Origin: Wenzhouxiangella sp. XN79A
GTDB taxonomy: Bacteria; Pseudomonadota; Gammaproteobacteria; Xanthomonadales; Wenzhouxiangellaceae
Length of the DNA stretch: 64,000 bases
Direction of reading: 5' to 3'
Assembly: GCF_012272825.1 (NCBI RefSeq)
Contig: NZ_JAAWWS010000156.1
Location: forward strand, 48,133-112,132
This document shows, one piece after another, positions 8,206 to 45,439 of this stretch. The translations under genes and the position numbers were made by a program. The first letter of the stretch is position 1, and every line of letters starts with the position of its first letter. The notes under the pieces were generated by a model. That model was not told the DNA's origin. It saw nothing but the letters and a program-made list of their open reading frames with translations, and did not search any database.

Positions 8206-10583
8206 CAGGCGGACTCTCCATTCGAGGCTTCGATCGCGAGCGGACCCCAGGCCGCGCCCAGGCGGCTGGACAGGCAGCTGGTGACCGGCAGCCAGGCCGC
8301 GCCCGGCGGCACGCCGTCGTCGTAACGGACCGGGGCGGTCACGGATACATCGCCCTGGCCGATCATCACGCGTTCGGCATCGCCGAGAGCCAGCGCGTCG
8401 CGCGCCGAGGGATGCAGCACGCAGTAGGCATGGTCGGCATGGTCGGTCGCCTGCAGCGCTTCGGCCCGGCGCAGCAGCGCATCCCCACCGAACATCGGCA
8501 CCACGCCGACCCGCCACAACGGCGCCTCGGCCTGATCGGCGGCCTCGAACGCGCCGGCACCGAGTTCCGGAGACAGCGCCGGCGACTCGTCGAACACCGG
8601 ATCGACCTGGTTCAGACCGGTGAACTCGAAGCCGTCGAGTTCGAGACGCTCACCGAGCACGCGCAGGATCTTCCAGCCGGGCCGCGCATCGCCCGGACTG
8701 CGTGCAGCGGCGGTCAACCACTGGCGGGTGCCGTCGGCATTGACGTAGCTGCCGTCGGTCTCCGGGGCCGGCGAAAGCGGCAACAGCACGTCGGCGACAT
8801 CCAGAAGATCGGTGCCGGCGAAGCTGGCTACCGCGACCACCACTTCGGCAGCGTCGAGAGCCGCGCGCGACGCGGCCGGGTCGGCCAGATCGAATTCCGG
8901 CTCCAGGTCGTACAGCAGGTAGGCCTGGCGCGGCGAGGCGATCTGCTCGGCGGCGCTCAGGCCGCCGGTTCCCGGCACCGCACCGGCGCGCCATGCGCCC
9001 TCGGCATTGGCCGCGGCCGGCAGGAACATGCGGGCGGTCTCGAGCACCCGGCACAGCTCGTCGGCCAGCGCGCGCAGCACTGCGGCCTGGGGGTGGGCCG
9101 ATGCGACGTCGCCCAGCAGCAGGCAGGCGCGCTCGGCGTCGCGCAGCGTCTCGGCCACCGCCCGGGCCGGTTCGTCCGGGACATGGCCGGCGACGAAGCG
9201 CCCGAGGTCGGAGTCCGGCACCGAGACCTCGCTGGCCTGGTAGGCGGCGTGCAGCACCCGGGCCAGGGTCACGACCATCTGCTGCGGCGGGACGATGAGG
9301 CGCTGCGTGAGGTCGTACGGAAGATCCCAGGCGATCGGGTTCAGGTCCATGATCCGGGCGCCGTGGCTGCGCCACGCGGTCCGCACCCGATGGTTCAGGA
9401 TCGGCTGGTCGTGCCGCAGGTAGCTGCCGACCAGGAACACCGCGTCGGCCGAGGACAGGTCCTGCATCGGCCGGTCGAGCCGCGCGCGGCCGACGTTCGG
9501 ATCTCGCGGATCGCTCACACGCAGGCGGTGATCGATGTTCGGCGTGCCCAGGCCGTCGGCCAGCTGCCGCAGCAGTCGATGCTCCTCGCTGGTCGCGCGC
9601 GGCGAAACCAGGACGCCGAGCTGGTCGGCCCCGTGCGTCGCCGTGGCGTTCCTCAAGGCCTGCGCGGCGAAGGCCAGCGCGGTCGGCCAGTCGACGGTTT
9701 CCCATTCGCCGTTGCGCTTGATGCGCGGGGCGGTCACGCGATCGTCGGCGGCCAGGCCGAAGTGACTGTAGCGGTCGCGGTCGGCCAGCCAGCACTCGTT
9801 GATGCGCTCGGCATCGCGCGGCACGCTGCGCATGATCTCGCCGCGACGCACGTGGTAGAAGAGGTTGGAACCGACGCAATCGTGTGTGCCGATGTACGGC
9901 TTGGCCGACATTTCCCAGGCGCGCGCGGAAAACCGGAACGGCTTGTTGGTCAGCGCGCCGACCGGGCACAGGTCGATGATGTTGCCGGACAACTCCGATT
10001 CGATGTTGCGCTCGATGAAGGTCGAGATCTCGGTCTTCTCGCCGCGATTGACATCACCCAGCTCGGCACTGCCGGCGATCTCCTCGAGGAACCGCACGCA
10101 GCGCGTGCAGTGGATGCAGCGCGTCATGTCGGTGGCGACCAGCGGGCCGAGGTTCTTGTCCTTGACCACGCGCTTGCGCTCGGTGAAGCGCGAGATCGAG
10201 CGGCCGTAGCCCATCGCCAGGTCCTGCAGCTCGCACTCGCCGCCCTGATCGCAGATCGGGCAGTCCAGCGGGTGGTTGATCAGCAGGAACTCCATCACGC
10301 CGCGCTGGGCATCGACGGCCCGGCGCGAGCGGGTGAACACCTTCATGCCGTCGGCCACCGGCGTGGCGCAGGCCGGCAGCGGCTTGGGCGCCTTCTCGAC
10401 GTCGACCAGGCACATCCGGCAGTTGGCCGCGATCGACAGCTTCTTGTGGTAGCAGAAGCGCGGAATCTCGATGCCCGCCTGATCGGTGATCTCGATGATC
10501 ATCTGGCCCTTGCGCGCCTGAAGCTCGCGGCCATCGACCTCGATCGTCACCGTATCCACCGGCTTGTTTTCGACAGTTGCCAT
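8205..10583 (-). CDS. nuoG: NADH-quinone oxidoreductase subunit G
   Basis: 792-residue subunit of the NADH-oxidising arm that houses several Fe-S clusters. Visible ligands: [2Fe-2S] C44, C55, C58, C72; HxxxC plus CxxC group H104, C108, C111, C117; and [4Fe-4S] C156, C159, C162. The C-terminal part is a degenerate molybdopterin-oxidoreductase domain. Length is in the range of alpha/gamma NuoG proteins without a full-size molybdopterin domain. Start is [10 protein letters not shown]; the extra 25 codons upstream come from an inserted repeat. It is separated from nuoF by 204 bases that hold an inverted-repeat element. Confidence 0.96.
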
Positions 10584-10608
10584 GACTGAATCCAGTAAGA
10601 CTCGATTT

Positions 10609-10763
10609 AACCGCGGATGAACGCGGATGAACGCAGATTGAAATGAAACACCCGGCAAACGAGAGCCTTGCCGTTCGAACGGCGCGACTCGATCTCGGTC
10701 GTGGACGTTTCAGGGGTTCTTTTCACGATTTTCATCTGCGTTGATCTGCCTTCATCTGCGGTT
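10609..10763. repeat. Inverted-repeat element between nuoF and nuoG
   Basis: Left arm 10609-10638 and right arm 10734-10763 are near-perfect reverse complements. Each is itself made of three roughly 10-base units of the form GCAGATGAAC (or GCGGATGAAC). About 95 unique bases lie between the arms. It sits in the spacer downstream of nuoF, before nuoG. The same family recurs at 12110-12247, and a related ACACGGATG version at 20915-21108. It probably forms a long RNA hairpin in the nuo transcript. Confidence 0.75.
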
Positions 10764-10787
10764 CGATTGTTGAATATGTGTCGACGG

Positions 10788-12083
<1,296 letters not shown>

Positions 12084-40194: not shown

Positions 40195-41367
40195 GTGTTC
40201 CTGTTCCTGAGTGCGCTCGCCTGTCTTCTCGCCCTGATCTTCGCGCTGGTGCCGCTGTTCCGTTCGACCCCGGAAGCGCGCGCTGTCCAGCGCCGTCTCG
40301 ACGCACTCGATGAACTGAGGGGCGACCTGCCCGACGACGAGTGGCAGCGCCGCCGCGAAGCACTGGAGGCGGAGCGGGCTCAGCACGTCGGCCCGTCACG
40401 CCACGGCGTCACCGCGGTCTTCATCGCCGTGCTGCTGCCGGTGCTGGTCGTGCTGTTCTATCGGATTGCCGGCACGCCGGAGGCCATGGGGCCGACCGAC
40501 CCGCAGGCCAGCGAGATCCGCGGCGCGCTGGGCGAACTGGCCGCCACGGTCAACGACGATCCCGACAACGTCGAGGCCTGGACCCGCATGGGCATGATCT
40601 GGAAGACACTGCAGCAGTGGCCGGCCGCAGAAGGCGCGTGGCGCCGCGTGCTGTTCCTCGACGAGAACAGCGCCATGGCCCGCGTCGAACTGGCCGAGAC
40701 GCTGCTGTTCGCCTCCGGCCGGCCCGAGATGCCCGACGAGGCCCTGCTGCTGCTGACCGAGGCCGTGCTGCTCGACCCGAACAACCAGAAGGCGCTGTGG
40801 CTGTCCGGCATGGGTGCGTTCCAGCAGGGCCGCTTCGCCGACGCCGTGGCCGACTGGGAACGCCTCGATACCCTGCTGCCAGAAGGTAACGTCAAGGACC
40901 AGGTCCGCCAGCAGATCGACCGCGCCCGCGCCGCACTGGCCAACGAAGCCCATAACGGCATGATGGCCCCGACCGACCCGGGCAGCGCCGAGCCGACAAC
41001 CGGGCCGGTGGCCGCCGAAGACGGCATCGAACTGACCGTCACCGTCGAACTCGCACCTGAAATCGCCGGCGCCGTCACCGGCAGCGAGACCGTGTTCGTC
41101 TTCGCCCGCGCCAGCAGTGGCCCGCCGCTCCCGCTGGCCATCGCGCGCTTCACCGCCGGCGACCTGCCCCGCACCGTCACCCTGACCGACGCCGACGCCA
41201 TGGCACCCAACATGACCCTGTCGACCTTCGACACCTGGGACGTCGTCGCCCGCATCAGCGCCAGCGGCAACGCCACCGCGTCGCCGGGTGATCTTCAAGG
41301 CGTGCGCGAGTCGGTGACCGTCGAGGACGGCGAGATCGCGGTACGGATCAACGAGCGGGTGGAGTAA
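40195..41367 (+). CDS. ccmI: Cytochrome c biogenesis protein CcmI
   Basis: 390-residue apocytochrome c chaperone. Two N-terminal membrane helices (about 2-21 and 71-91) flank a cytosolic basic loop (RRLDALDELRGDLPDDEWQRRREALEAE). Then a periplasmic TPR region (about 110-245) and a beta-rich C-terminal domain (about 275-390) follow. Start is GTG. It is the last ccm gene; the integron array begins 90 bases downstream, with no clear terminator seen. Confidence 0.92.
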   Translation: MFLFLSALACLLALIFALVPLFRSTPEARAVQRRLDALDELRGDLPDDEWQRRREALEAERAQHVGPSRHGVTAVFIAVLLPVLVVLFYRIAGTPEAMGPTDPQASEIRGALGELAATVNDDPDNVEAWTRMGMIWKTLQQWPAAEGAWRRVLFLDENSAMARVELAETLLFASGRPEMPDEALLLLTEAVLLDPNNQKALWLSGMGAFQQGRFADAVADWERLDTLLPEGNVKDQVRQQIDRARAALANEAHNGMMAPTDPGSAEPTTGPVAAEDGIELTVTVELAPEIAGAVTGSETVFVFARASSGPPLPLAIARFTAGDLPRTVTLTDADAMAPNMTLSTFDTWDVVARISASGNATASPGDLQGVRESVTVEDGEIAVRINERVE

Positions 41368-41457: not shown

Positions 41458-41964
41458 TCACGAACGCCTGTTGGTTTCATTGATCGCACCACAACGTACT
41501 TTCGCCCAGTCCACGGTGCGAACGCCGGAAGCGGCATGAACGCGGACGAGATAACCGAAAGTATCGGGGTATTCAGCGGTGAATGCGGTCAACCAGGATA
41601 CGTCATGCTGGCTGAAGCTTTTCGGGCTTCGCCCGGACCGACTGAGCTTCCACTCCATCACCAACCGCGGGTGATGAGCGGCGCGCCAGTTTTCATCCCA
41701 CGCCGTTGCAAGAGCGTCGTTCCAGATCACCAGGTCTTTCGGAGCCGACTGCCGGGAACAGGCTCGAGGCTGGGGAACAGCCCCTTCGATTCGAACCTGA
41801 GCGAGATCGGATACCGCTGCACCTGGCTGAATTTGCGCGGCCAGGAACCTGTGCGCAAAGAGATTGACGCAATCGCGCTCCTTTCCCTGCCAACTCGCGC
41901 TGAGAAACCAGTGCGAGAAATCCTCCAGGGCATCTTCTACGAATCGATCGAGGCGACTGCGCAT
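41458..41964 (-). CDS. Cassette protein with PD-(D/E)XK-like signature
   Basis: 168-residue protein from the cassette most distant from attI. I do not recognise a named family. An N-terminal helical segment (FVEDALEDFSHWF, then KERDCVNLFAHRFL) is followed by KDLVIW (D77) and LVMEWKLSR (E104, K106). This D ... E-x-K spacing on predicted strands is the usual PD-(D/E)XK nuclease core. The later DVSWLTAFTAEYPDTFGYLVRV looks like an alternating helix and strand. It starts 13 bases after the GTT crossover point of attC-1. No attC follows it. The opposite strand is also open over the same span but has no cassette logic. Confidence 0.7.
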   Translation of the reverse strand: MRSRLDRFVEDALEDFSHWFLSASWQGKERDCVNLFAHRFLAAQIQPGAAVSDLAQVRIEGAVPQPRACSRQSAPKDLVIWNDALATAWDENWRAAHHPRLVMEWKLSRSGRSPKSFSQHDVSWLTAFTAEYPDTFGYLVRVHAASGVRTVDWAKVRCGAINETNRRS

Positions 41965-41976
41965 GTCCAGCTGAAG

Positions 41977-42056
41977 TCTTAACTCAGCGGCGCGGTTCTA
42001 GCCGCGTCCGGTGGAGGTCCGAAGGGCCGGAACGTACTTGAGCGACTTGCTTATGC
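41977..42056 (-). repeat. attC-1 (after hicAB)
   Basis: 80-bp attC read on the lower strand: R'' box GCATAAG at 42056-42050, then a palindromic body with GTCGCTCAAG and the GC-rich hairpins, ending at R' box GTTAAGA (41983-41977). It departs from the consensus: R'' has G instead of C at the last position and R' ends in A. The hicB stop codon TAA lies inside the R'' box. Confidence 0.85.
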
Positions 42057-42290
42057 GATTTGCTGTAGCGAGTTGGCAAGATCTCGGCCAGCTGTCGGTG
42101 GCGGGAGGGGCTTCCCCTCCTTGTGGTAAAGATCGATGATATCGTCCACGATCTGACAGAGTTGGTCGAAGACCTCCTTCTCGTCGTCGCCGTGGCAGCC
42201 GCCATAGACGAGGCCGGGTGCGCTACCCACAAAACACTGGTCTTCCTCCGACCACTCCACAATCTTGGCGTAGAGGGCACTTTCCTTCAT
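42051..42290 (-). CDS. hicB: HicB family antitoxin
   Basis: 79-residue partial-RNase H-fold antitoxin: SALYAKIVEWSEEDQCFVGS then APGLVYGGCHGDDEKEVFDQL, the HicB core. It would neutralise the HicA nuclease and probably bind DNA to repress the pair, although no clear C-terminal DNA-binding domain remains in this short form. Its ATG overlaps the hicA stop by four bases. Its stop codon is supplied by attC-1. Confidence 0.88.
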   Translation of the reverse strand: MKESALYAKIVEWSEEDQCFVGSAPGLVYGGCHGDDEKEVFDQLCQIVDDIIDLYHKEGKPLPPPTAGRDLANSLQQIA

Positions 42291-42484
42291 TTCTTCGCCT
42301 CCTGGACGGCCTTTTCTACCGCCCGAATCTGGTATTTCCTGGCGTCATCTCCGAGTTTGCCGGAAATCGTCACAGGTTTCGACACATTCGGGTGGACGAA
42401 ATTCCGGTGGCAACCCTTTCCACCCCGGTTCCGGAAGCCTGCCTTTTCGAGGCTCTTGACGAGTTCACGGACTTTGGGCGGCAC
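42287..42484 (-). CDS. hicA: HicA family mRNA interferase toxin
   Basis: 65-residue YcfA/HicA-type toxin with a double-stranded RNA-binding fold: VRELVKSLEKAGFRNRGGKG followed by the catalytic-histidine motif GCHRNFVHP and KPVTISGKLGDDARKYQIRAV. It is expected to cleave mRNA until bound by HicB. The start is GTG with a clear AGGAG eight to nine bases upstream. The toxin-first order and overlap with hicB are standard. The pair forms a single two-gene integron cassette. Confidence 0.88.
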   Translation of the reverse strand: MPPKVRELVKSLEKAGFRNRGGKGCHRNFVHPNVSKPVTISGKLGDDARKYQIRAVEKAVQEAKK

Positions 42485-42513
42485 TAGCGGCTCCTAGCTG
42501 GAAACCCCTTATC

Positions 42514-42600
42514 ACATAACGTCTGAGCTAAGCGGCGCGGCTTTAGCCGCGTCCGGTGGAGGCCCGAAGGGCCGGAACGTACTTGAGCGACTTGTTAGGC
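42514..42600 (-). repeat. attC-2 (between HEPN-like and hicAB cassettes)
   Basis: 87-bp attC on the lower strand: R'' GCCTAAC (42600-42594) and R' GTTATGT (42520-42514). Between them lie AAGTCGCTCAAG and CTTAGCTCAGAC as imperfect L boxes, plus two GC-rich hairpins (CGCGGC-TAAA-GCCGCG and GGCCC-TTC-GGGCC). The stop codon of the HEPN-like gene lies inside R''. Confidence 0.92.
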
Positions 42601-43146
42601 ATCATTGCCTTCGGCTTCCGAACTATGGGGGGACTTGTACCGCTCCAACATTTCGGGATTGTTCTGCGCGACCTGAAAGAAGAACTTGCTCATTTTTTGT
42701 AGCAGCCACCGCAACATCTGCTCAAGCGCCAATAACTCGGATTTCTCCAGATGCAAACCCTCGTTGAATTGGAAGTGCGGAAAATTGTACTCGCCATCTA
42801 GAACAGGAAATGTGCTCGTACGAAAGTGCATTTCTTCTTCGTCAGAATGCGCAATAATTTTCCTTCTCAGATGCATAATGCGGTCAAGAAGCTCTCGATG
42901 TCCCTGATTGAGTTTGATTCCCAGAGCGCGCAAGCTAAGCTGAGATCCGGCTCGCGAATTCTCAAGTGGTCTAGCCATAGAGATAATCAGCGTTGTTTCG
43001 AAGCAACGGAACTTCCTCAAATCGACCCGACTATACCTTTCTTCGAAGTCACACTCCTCAAGAAGAAATGTCAGCGCGGACAACGCCTGCTGCAGATCCC
43101 ATGATGCGTAGATTGCCCTAATCAACTGCGCCTCAGTTATCCTCAT
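42595..43146 (-). CDS. HEPN-like cassette protein (R-x4-H motif)
   Basis: 183-residue, mostly helical, soluble protein from the second cassette. I cannot assign a named family. The segment LLDRIMHLRRKIIAHSDEEE contains R95-KIIA-H100, the R-x4-6-H motif typical of HEPN ribonucleases, on a predicted helix. An earlier basic block is LRKFRCFETTLIISMARPLENSR (about 43-65). Codon use is AT-rich compared with neighbours. The ATG lies four bases after the attC-3 R' box, whose AGG is the only ribosome-binding purine run. The TAA stop is within attC-2. Confidence 0.75.
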   Translation of the reverse strand: MRITEAQLIRAIYASWDLQQALSALTFLLEECDFEERYSRVDLRKFRCFETTLIISMARPLENSRAGSQLSLRALGIKLNQGHRELLDRIMHLRRKIIAHSDEEEMHFRTSTFPVLDGEYNFPHFQFNEGLHLEKSELLALEQMLRWLLQKMSKFFFQVAQNNPEMLERYKSPHSSEAEGNDA

Positions 43147-43149
43147 GAT

Positions 43150-43237
43150 GCCTAACCGTCTGAGCTAAGCGGCGCGGCTTTAGCCGCGTCCGGTGGAGGC
43201 CCAGAGGGCCGGAACGCAATTGAGCGACTTGTTATGC
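43150..43237 (-). repeat. attC-3 (between first and second cassettes)
   Basis: 88-bp attC on the lower strand with R'' GCATAAC (43237-43231) and a perfect R' GTTAGGC (43156-43150). The body is nearly identical to attC-2, differing in a few bases (CAATT for TACTT, and AGA for GAA in a loop). Confidence 0.93.
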
Positions 43238-43243
43238 GGCATC

Positions 43244-43663
43244 TTACCCTCGCCGCAACTTATTGAATAAAAGGTACCCCAGGAACATACCACCAGCCAC
43301 AATTACCGCGAAAATTGCCAAAACAAAAAGTGTGGCAAACAGCGCCCCGAAACCATGAACGGTGCTGCCGTTCCAGGTAACTGTTCCCGCACCAAAGACT
43401 CCCGCCAAGCCTAAAAGCCCAATCAACAAGCCCCAGCTACAGAGAAAACTGCCGACGAAATCCAGAAAATCGGCGCCGGCTTGTAATGGCTTGTGTTGCA
43501 CGCCCTTTATGGCGTTCAGCTCGCCCTCCAGACTGGCAGCACGTTGCGATTTCTGTTCCATTGCGTCTGAGAGCTTCTTAGCTCGCTCGGGGTATGCTGC
43601 TCTATCAATACTGGACAAAGCTTGCTCCAGCTCTGCGATAGTGTATTTATCTATGTCACCCAT
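43244..43663 (-). CDS. Two-helix membrane protein, first cassette
   Basis: 139-residue protein from the cassette next to attI. Residues 1-55 are charged and helical with heptad-like spacing (YTIAELEQALSSID, KLSDAMEQKSQRAASLEGELNAI), so a coiled coil is likely. Two membrane helices follow, about 66-92 and 105-132, with a short loop (TVTWNGSTVHG). No family is recognised. Base composition is AT-rich. The start lies 11 bases after the attI/cassette junction. Being first in the array, it would be the best-expressed cassette if a Pc promoter exists. Confidence 0.75.
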   Translation of the reverse strand: MGDIDKYTIAELEQALSSIDRAAYPERAKKLSDAMEQKSQRAASLEGELNAIKGVQHKPLQAGADFLDFVGSFLCSWGLLIGLLGLAGVFGAGTVTWNGSTVHGFGALFATLFVLAIFAVIVAGGMFLGYLLFNKLRRG

Positions 43664-43673
43664 AACCTGTTCC

Positions 43674-43735
43674 GCATAACTAGAAAATATGTGGCGAAAA
43701 GGCTGTGTAGCGAGTAGGCGTGCAAAAATGCTCGT
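43674..43735 (-). other. attI candidate / cassette junction
   Basis: On the lower strand a GTTATGC box (43680-43674) marks the junction between the first cassette and the sequence upstream of intI. It matches the attC R' boxes in sequence. The exact right boundary of attI cannot be read by eye; the 250 bases between here and the intI start presumably hold attI and both promoters. No convincing -35/-10 pair was found. Confidence 0.55.
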
Positions 43736-43929
43736 TAGTACGCGTGTTTCCGCAGTCAGGAATTGCCAAGTATCTGATTTTCAACGCCCTGCCCCACAGT
43801 TCGTTCGGAGATATCCTGCACGAACGCCGCTTAGCGCGCAAGTTTCCTACGCGATTCCGGGTGATTTTCCGATGGTGCGTCGCGTTTCTTCGTGGCGGAA
43901 TGGGATCCAGTCCTCACGCGGCAGCCCCG

Positions 43930-44886
43930 ATGGCCGAGAAGCTTCTCGATCGAATGCGCCGGATCATCCGGGTCCGGCACTACAGCAGAAAGACCGAGCA
44001 GGCGTACCTGCGCTGGGTTCGGCGATTCATCCTGTTTCACGGGAAGCGTCACCCGAAGACGATGGGGGCCGAGGAGGTCACGGCCTTTCTGAGCCACCTG
44101 GCCGTCGAGCGGGGCTGCGCGGCTGCGACCCAGAACCAGGCACTGAACGCGATTCTCTTCCTGTACCGCCGAGTACTGGAGATCGAACTGCCCTGGCTCG
44201 ACGAGGTGGTCCGGGCCAAGCGGCCGCAGCGGGTGCCGGTGGTGCTGACGGCGTCGGAGGTTCGGGCCGTTCTTGCACAGCTGCCGCCGCCCCACGATCT
44301 GATTGCGCAACTGCTCTACGGCTCGGGCCTGCGTGTGGGCGAGGCCGCCGCGCTCCGGATCAAGGACGTGGATACGGACCGCCGGTCGATCACGGTCCGG
44401 GACGGCAAGGGTGCCAAGGACCGCATCACGGTGCTGGCCGATCGCTGCATCGAGCCCATCGGCCGACAGATCGAACGGGCCGCCACGCTGGCCAGGCGGG
44501 ACCGCGATCGGGGCGAAGGCGGCGTGATCCTGCCCTTCGCGCTGGCCCGGAAATACCCGAACGCGCAGTTCGACGAGGCCTGGATGTTCGTCTTCCCCGC
44601 GCGCCGGCTCAGCCGGGAACCGCGAAGCGGACGAATCGCTCGCTATCACGTGCTGACCGGTACGATTCAGCGCGCGATCAAGAAGGCGGCGCAACGCGCC
44701 GGCATTCGCAAGCCGGTGACCAGCCACGCGTTCCGCCACAGCTTCGCGACCCACCTGCTGGAATCCGGCGCCGACATCCGAACGATCCAACAACTACTGG
44801 GCCATTCCGACGTGCGCACGACGATGATCTACACCCACGTCGTCCAGCGCGGCGCGCTGGGGGCGCGGAGTCCCTTCGACGGTTGA
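43930..44886 (+). CDS. intI: Integron integrase IntI
   Basis: 318-residue tyrosine recombinase that inserts and excises cassettes at attI and attC. N-terminal SAM-like domain: RHYSRKTEQAYLRWVRRFILFH. Catalytic residues R135 (YGSGLR), K160 (RDGKGAKDR), H266 and R269 (SHAFRHSF), H292 (LLGHSD) and Y301 (IYTHV) are all present and offset by 11 from IntI1. The integron-specific insertion KYPNAQFDEAWMFVFPARRLS (about 208-228) separates it from XerC/D. Start at MAEKLLDRMRR gives the usual length; longer in-frame starts at 43720 and 43900 are less likely. The gene appears intact. Confidence 0.95.
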   Translation: MAEKLLDRMRRIIRVRHYSRKTEQAYLRWVRRFILFHGKRHPKTMGAEEVTAFLSHLAVERGCAAATQNQALNAILFLYRRVLEIELPWLDEVVRAKRPQRVPVVLTASEVRAVLAQLPPPHDLIAQLLYGSGLRVGEAAALRIKDVDTDRRSITVRDGKGAKDRITVLADRCIEPIGRQIERAATLARRDRDRGEGGVILPFALARKYPNAQFDEAWMFVFPARRLSREPRSGRIARYHVLTGTIQRAIKKAAQRAGIRKPVTSHAFRHSFATHLLESGADIRTIQQLLGHSDVRTTMIYTHVVQRGALGARSPFDG

Positions 44887-44917: not shown

Positions 44918-45439
44918 CTAATCGTCTTCGCGAAGCACCATCCGCACCGCGCGGGCCTCTTCGCCCCACGGCGCGATGTTGGTCATCTGCAGCACCAGCG
45001 TGTCGTCGGGACGCTGGCTGAGCTTGATGCGCCAGTGCCAGTCGGGACCGGTGCCGGCGGGGTAGCTGTATTCAGCGGCCAGCAACGCGCCGTGGGCGGC
45101 GACGGGGGTCAGCGCTACGCCTTCGGGCTGGTGCCAGCTGTCGTGCCAGCGCAGGCCGTCGTCGGCCCAGGTCAGTTCGCCGGAATGGGGCGTGCCCTTG
45201 TAGACCCAGGTGTAGGTCATGCGGTCGTTGCCGACCTGCAGCGTCGCGTCGCTGGTCTCGCCCTCGTTGCCGCTGGGGTCGACCCAGAGTTCGGCGCGGC
45301 CCGACCACTCGCTGCCGGCCCGGGCCGCGGCCCATTCGTTCAGGTTCTGCATGGCGTCGTCCTCGCTGGCGTCGGCCGGGGCGGCTGCGGCAAGCAGCAG
45401 CACGGCGGCGATGATGCCGATCCGGTTCCAGGTGTTCAT
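44918..45439 (-). CDS. Secreted protein of unknown function
   Basis: 173 residues with a clear signal peptide (RIGIIAAVLLLAAAAPADA, cleavage near residue 25). The mature part is a predicted beta protein: WSGRAELWVDPSGNEGETSDATLQVGNDRMTYTWVYKGTPHSGEL and repeated tryptophans. The pattern recalls DUF1579-like or lipocalin-type proteins, but I cannot assign a family. It is convergent with intI and 52 bases downstream of the TIGR02450 gene. Confidence 0.7.
   Translation of the reverse strand: MNTWNRIGIIAAVLLLAAAAPADASEDDAMQNLNEWAAARAGSEWSGRAELWVDPSGNEGETSDATLQVGNDRMTYTWVYKGTPHSGELTWADDGLRWHDSWHQPEGVALTPVAAHGALLAAEYSYPAGTGPDWHWRIKLSQRPDDTLVLQMTNIAPWGEEARAVRMVLREDD

Follow-up and report, generated by a model that had tools for sequence, protein, structure and literature searches.

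Sedentary chromosomal integrons of Xanthomonas have their integrase gene, intI, downstream of ilvD, and clusters of attC sites lacking an integron integrase (CALINs) occupy conserved loci in the same genus, as described in PMC12444791. Three origins are usually proposed for CALINs in reviews, namely off-target insertion, intI loss and rearrangement (PMC8618304), and a precedent for a single CALIN headed by an attI site is known from a Shewanella prophage (PMC9892861). It is an open question in the field how integrase-less cassette arrays arise. Apart from a few well-studied integrons, the attI site, at which cassettes are received, is difficult to identify. Here we analysed a stretch of 64 kb (positions 48133-112132 of contig C39, hereafter the window) of the draft genome of Wenzhouxiangella sp. 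XN79A, a member of the Wenzhouxiangellaceae (3.75 Mb, completeness 99.97%), in which an integron lies next to the ccm operon. We hold with high confidence that this element is a resident (sedentary) chromosomal integron of its host. To judge from sequence, the integron by itself is ordinary and of an already known kind, and it is the arrangement in the whole genome that differs. In what follows, G000 is the window's own genome, G004 a congener and G009 a member of another genus.

The integron next to the ccm operon

In anatomy, homology and position the elements of this locus are those of an integron. The open reading frame (ORF) of the integrase was listed as 43720-44886; its likeliest start is the ATG at 43930 (MAEKLLDRM...), which is the start common to its relatives. 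The protein matched the integron-integrase model TIGR02249 with 449 bits (cut-off 265), compared to 157 and 147 bits for the XerD and XerC models, respectively. As the first-pass annotation had claimed, all the catalytic residues (R, K, H, R, H, Y) are kept in the alignment, and the integron-specific insertion (patch III), LPFALARKYPNAQFDEAWMFVFP, is present, aligning with that of IntI1 and missing from the Xer proteins of the genome. In a maximum-likelihood tree of 37 rows the protein falls among the integron integrases, grouping with those of its own genus and family, and the two Xer proteins of the genome stay outside as a separate branch (support 100/100). The closest solved structure is IntI4 of V. 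cholerae (PDB 2a3v, E 1.3e-87, residues 4-316 matched). From these features IntI is predicted to be active in recombination; a search of the genome located its only intact intI gene here, on C39.

The attC sites were searched by a covariance model trained on 16 attC sites of the genus, attC3 being excluded from the training. At E ≤ 0.01 the model matched exactly three sites in the window, at the three places proposed by the annotation to within a few bases, and none elsewhere. The 19-base attC core occurs perfectly three times, whereas chance would give 0.28 matches with up to 3 mismatches allowed, and the stems carry compensatory changes (13 cells changed on both sides, a value reached in 0 of 500 shuffles). 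Complementarity between the R'' box of the attC and the beginning of its own cassette is a feature of intact cassettes; independently of any model, the R'' boxes of attC1 and attC2 are each the exact reverse complement (9/9) of their own cassette's start, located at attI for cassette 1 and at attC1 for cassette 2. The near-identity of the attC sites, put forward earlier as the mark of a resident array, was borne out as a part of the evidence for a sedentary integron. The Rfam gathering scan of the window, with Rfam having no attC family, returned one tRNA only, and a crude model-free attC scan, set too strictly, found nothing in the window or in controls alike.

The three sites are thus all present, but only two are intact. 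In attC3 the R'' box reads GCATAAG instead of RYYYAAC and the R' box CTTCAGC instead of GTTRRRY, so that both core triplets are gone, GTT being the site at which IntI cuts. Therefore just two sites, attC1 and attC2, look functional, and the idea that all three are good was rejected. attC3 is probably dead, which would lock the hicAB cassette in the array, probably no longer excisable on its own, while cassettes 1 and 2, with intact attC, should be excisable.

The attI crossover was placed at 43680 by the complementarity between R'' and the cassette start. About 165 bp common to the other attI copies described below lead up to the GTT at 43680-43678 (minus strand), and the sequence is conserved beside intI of G004 (L054:10655). 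This confirmed the attI candidate suggested on the integrase side, which ends in the GTT at the first cassette. A possible attC-like folded hairpin in the attI unit was rejected, since it folds no better than shuffled sequences on both strands (z 0.29 and 0.66).

The residence of the integron was evaluated in the congener. In G004 the end of ccmI is at C1:605067 and the start of intI at 630906; the integron is about 24 kb from ccmI, vs about 2.5 kb in the window, and homologues of YihY and DUF1579 lie on the far side in swapped order. Since ccmI is on one side and YihY/DUF1579 on the other in G004 too, the integron has a resident chromosomal position in the same neighbourhood, in agreement with the annotated location of a chromosomal integron with intact integrase next to ccm. 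Only two attC were found at this locus of G004, both beside intI, and a tblastn search of its array found no counterpart of the window cassette genes. Moreover, the identities of IntI and CcmF to the window proteins run parallel in G004 (86/86%), G006 (69/71%) and G010 (67/69%), whereas they do not in G008 and G009 (70 vs 56). IntI was found at E ≤ 1e-60 in 35 of the 61 genomes examined, and the complete genome G022 represents a large form, with an array of 24 or more attC that extends over 37 kb next to intI. In G040, from another family of the order (C86, L158:6661-12837), intI is about 4 kb from ccmI in the opposite orientation and with unrelated genes between them, probably by coincidence; for these two reasons we rejected ccm as a general integron site.

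As reported in Table 1, attC sites and cassette genes are both on the minus strand, opposite to intI, as had been annotated. The contents of the cassettes had been described as mostly unknown genes: this stood for the proteins of cassettes 1 and 2, to which no family was assigned, but not for cassette 3, a probable HicAB toxin-antitoxin pair. The 139-aa product of cassette 1 is a predicted membrane/coiled-coil protein and gave no match above cut-off in the family-library scans. The 183-aa protein of cassette 2 has homologues at 27-34% identity on alphaproteobacterial plasmids, and its AlphaFold model, computed without alignment, was unusable (pLDDT 37). In cassette 3 the HicA domain was recognised (PF07927, 41.2 bits, cut-off 27); its 79-aa hicB-like partner, without a family match in the library scans, is named by position and size only. 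For the 168-aa ORF no homologue was found in the family libraries or plasmids searched.

Table 1. Features of the integron and its flanks (positions in the window)
Feature	Position	Strand	Content or basis
ccmI, end of ccm operon	40195..41367	+	left integron boundary; synteny with G004 L120:3838-5067
168-aa ORF	41458..41964	-	beyond attC3, without attC; last array member or flanking gene
Cassette 3	41972..42519	-	hicA 42287-42484, hicB-like 42051-42290, attC3
attC3, degenerate	41977..42056	-	covariance model 70 bits (41971-42055); sequence; no cassette-start match
attC2	42513..42600	-	intact core sites; covariance model 109 bits (42515-42599)
Cassette 2	42520..43155	-	ORF 42595-43146 (183 aa) and attC2; 9/9 R'' match at attC1
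attC1	43150..43238	-	intact core sites; covariance model 91.7 bits (43151-43236)
Cassette 1	43156..43679	-	ORF 43244-43663 (139 aa) and attC1; 9/9 R'' match with start at attI
attI	43678..43848	-	crossover G 43680, GTT 43680-43678; unit of about 167 bp copied elsewhere in genome
intI, integron integrase (318 aa)	43930..44886	+	TIGR02249 score, residue check, tree, closest solved structure
DUF1579-like gene	44918..45439	-	right integron boundary; DUF1579 slightly below cut-off; G004 homologue L054:14609-15043 near integron

Integrase-less arrays and a dead IntI homologue

By DNA similarity the genome contains ten attC, three in the window and seven outside it (two on C36, three on C14 and two on C46); an eighth, weak outside site is on C4, and its R'' is a 9/9 match to a cassette start at a distance of 963 nt. 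In total there are five integrase-less arrays on four other contigs (C14, C4, C36 with two, and C46), and all five start at an attI-like sequence, as observed by locating the start of the first cassette by R'' complementarity and comparing the sequence that precedes it. The heads on C14 and C4 are copies of the window attI, at about 90% identity (90-91%) over 167-169 bp and at about 83-84% over 170-176 bp, respectively. The heads of the two C36 arrays and of C46 are of a second attI type, which matches the attI of a G009 integron; in particular, the heads C36b and C46b resemble the attI of the second integron of G009 at 87-89% identity over 55-61 bp. C36b and C46b also have in common, at 93%, a segment of 545 bp that contains the 3' end of a yaiI (DUF188-like) gene, and thus either one derived from the other or both came from a common segment. 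As a control, the 45 bp preceding each of 2800 GTT sites, taken from six genome stretches, were compared to five intI-proximal attI; in this simple tally, one to eight of the sites were as similar as the array heads, about equal to the number of heads. Since each of the five arrays is headed by a copy of the integron landing site, the landing site itself appears to have spread round the chromosome.

Clustered attC without a nearby intI, as in CALINs, were found on C14, C36 and C46. The usual CALIN threshold is two attC per cluster, and the two arrays of C36, with one detected attC each, are below it. The contigs carry core genes, named by eye from ORF translations, i.e. fusA on C14, clpB and the yaiI-like gene on C46, and ridA on C4. 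The C14 array (L052:7490-10059) lies beside fusA and has, in addition to its three modelled attC, one attC-like site that belongs to a different type. On C4 (L194:1007-3730) the attI copy heads a DUF5677 gene with the weak attC, followed by a CD-NTase (SMODS) gene paired with one for SLATT_4; these make up a CBASS-type anti-phage module, for which the closing attC was not found. The three arrays with heads of the second type are at L051:5457-9542 (C36) and L203:2162-4026 (C46).

Similar copies were observed in relatives. G009 has two intI genes and three copies of one attI type, once beside intI and twice without it: on C1 (L230) this second type lies directly upstream of intI 10455-11408, on C39 (L232) an integrase-less copy heads a one-attC cassette, and on C44 (L231) there is a further integrase-less copy. 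Two further attI-like stretches were found on C3 of G004, one near an attC; at C3:667094-667241 (L196, C3:660000-673000) the sequence is 62-64% identical, with no attC detected nearby, and is possibly an empty attI copy. The lone arrays of G015, G017 and G018 are, by eye, without attI-like heads.

The genome also encodes an IntI homologue on C38 (41550-42521; L255:5551-6522), which scored 187.7 bits with TIGR02249, below cut-off. It was found in ten genomes, which represent four or more genera; one of them, G001, has no IntI at E ≤ 1e-60. In 10/10 of them the catalytic Tyr and Lys are missing and both Arg are kept, the IntI insertion is recognisable, and the homologues form one branch of the tree (100/100). 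Wherever the neighbours are covered, the locus is syntenic, lying between an amidohydrolase and a lipocalin-like/ABC transporter cluster (both named by eye). For three pairs the dN/dS was 0.20-0.28, and for G000/G004 it was 0.58, compared to 0.06-0.13 for IntI; on these ratios the dead homologue is under constraint, to a lesser degree than IntI. No such family came up when we searched openly available papers, which is weak evidence of novelty. We would guess that it binds integron sites without cutting, and, if it does bind attI or attC, it would be an unrecognised integron regulator.

Possible origin of the extra landing sites

The arrangement described above suggests the following mechanism. 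IntI, the product of the plus strand, would take attC as a folded bottom strand and recombine it with attI, in double-stranded form, at 43680. Incoming cassettes would thus be placed beside attI, and their genes would point away from intI. Cassettes 1 and 2 would be mobile and the HicAB cassette fixed through its decayed attC, with the attC-less ORF and then ccmI beyond it. One enzyme could have several landing sites, cassettes being received at attI-type loci from the single intact IntI, and we consider it rather likely that the extra arrays are served in trans in this way. The extra landing sites most likely originated by attI duplication. The edges of the C14 head and of G009 C39, abrupt and without intI remnants, would fit the copying of a short module, and G009 C44, perhaps together with C4, would fit intI loss after a larger duplication. 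We also considered an inverted GTT as the exact endpoint of the attI copies, and rejected it: this holds for C14, but the deviation is a few to about 20 bases in C4, the G004 copies and G009 C39.

The integrase-less arrays could instead be the remnants of whole integrons (intI, attI and cassettes), duplicated or acquired, which then lost intI, an explanation that we regard as a serious possibility, although short of an even chance. As expected after intI loss, G009 C44 keeps 265 bp of attI and intI leader at 86%; some similarity (about 57%) continues past the attI unit in the C4 copy, and the heads on C36 and C46 match the attI of an integron type whose intI is missing from the genome. However, the similarity of C14 drops to background at once after 167 bp at 90%, and that of G009 C39 does so after 187 bp at 97%. 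Decay after intI loss would be expected to show as a gradient or as intI remnants; searches of the own genome and of G009 turned up no intI fragment at these copies.

It is, instead, very unlikely that cassettes were inserted off target at random attG sites and that the attI likeness of the heads is a coincidence, or reflects a short core preference of IntI. Insertion at attG is documented (Loot et al. 2024, as cited in PMC12444791), and some lone arrays, those of G015, G017 and G018, do begin at sites unlike attI; by contrast, C14 and C4 have about 170 bp in common with a true attI, the likeness of C36b and C46b extends over the 55-61 bp given above, and GTT sites of equal similarity were almost confined to heads among the 2800 compared. 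Finally, that the window element is a Xer-type recombinase beside repeats can practically be discarded: all tyrosine recombinases are distantly homologous, but the family score, the insertion, the tree, the attC fold and the cassette-end rule refute it.

Several observations weigh against a resident integron whose IntI serves the other arrays. One of its three attC is broken, and no cassette start complements the R'' of attC3; the attC of C4 is weak (19.6 bits); the genome is a draft, and the unlinked status of the extra arrays rests on contigs with core genes. The IntI of G008, which belongs to another genus, nests inside the IntI clade of the window's genus, so that exchange occurs and the descent of IntI is not all vertical. 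Moreover, LexA boxes of the form CTGTN8ACAG or CTGN10CAG were not found in 43601-43960, although the LexA motif of the host family may differ, and no sigma-70-type promoter was found upstream of intI. The SOS (LexA) control of intI is frequent among integrons and not universal, and hence is not decisive.

Returning to attI duplication, its most far-reaching form would make attI a discrete, copyable module of about 170-190 bp, seeded at several loci, each nucleating an array served in trans by one IntI, and the dead homologue may bind these sites as a regulator. Taken as a whole this is doubtful and we propose it as speculation; if true, the seeded module would add a CALIN route to the three usually proposed (PMC8618304).

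Comparison with known integrons

IntI4 of V. cholerae (2a3v) is akin to the window integrase as its closest solved structure, and it differs in host, attC type and array size. The integrons of Xanthomonas, in the accessible part of PMC12444791, resemble this one in having intI with divergent cassettes, a resident position, mostly unknown cassettes and extra integrase-less chromosomal arrays; unlike them, here the neighbour is ccm and not ilvD, and the array is short. The extra arrays here have attI-like heads, which that part of the source does not report for Xanthomonas. In the attG insertions (Loot et al. 2024, as cited there) IntI similarly uses non-classical sites, but attG are unrelated chromosomal sequences. 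Cassettes of the delta-attI type indicate that parts of attI can become parts of cassettes (PMC12901181); they mostly hold 14-18 nt at the cassette 3' end, whereas about 170 bp are found here at the array 5' end. The Shewanella prophage case is alike in that an integrase-less array headed by an attI copy exists beside a complete integron (PMC9892861), but it concerns one copy in one prophage, whereas in this genome the integrase-less heads number five, belong to two attI lineages and are on chromosomal contigs, with similar copies in a second genus. Since attI was defined by comparing related genomes, and all the extra arrays are headed by an attI-like sequence, the origin of CALINs becomes testable in this system.

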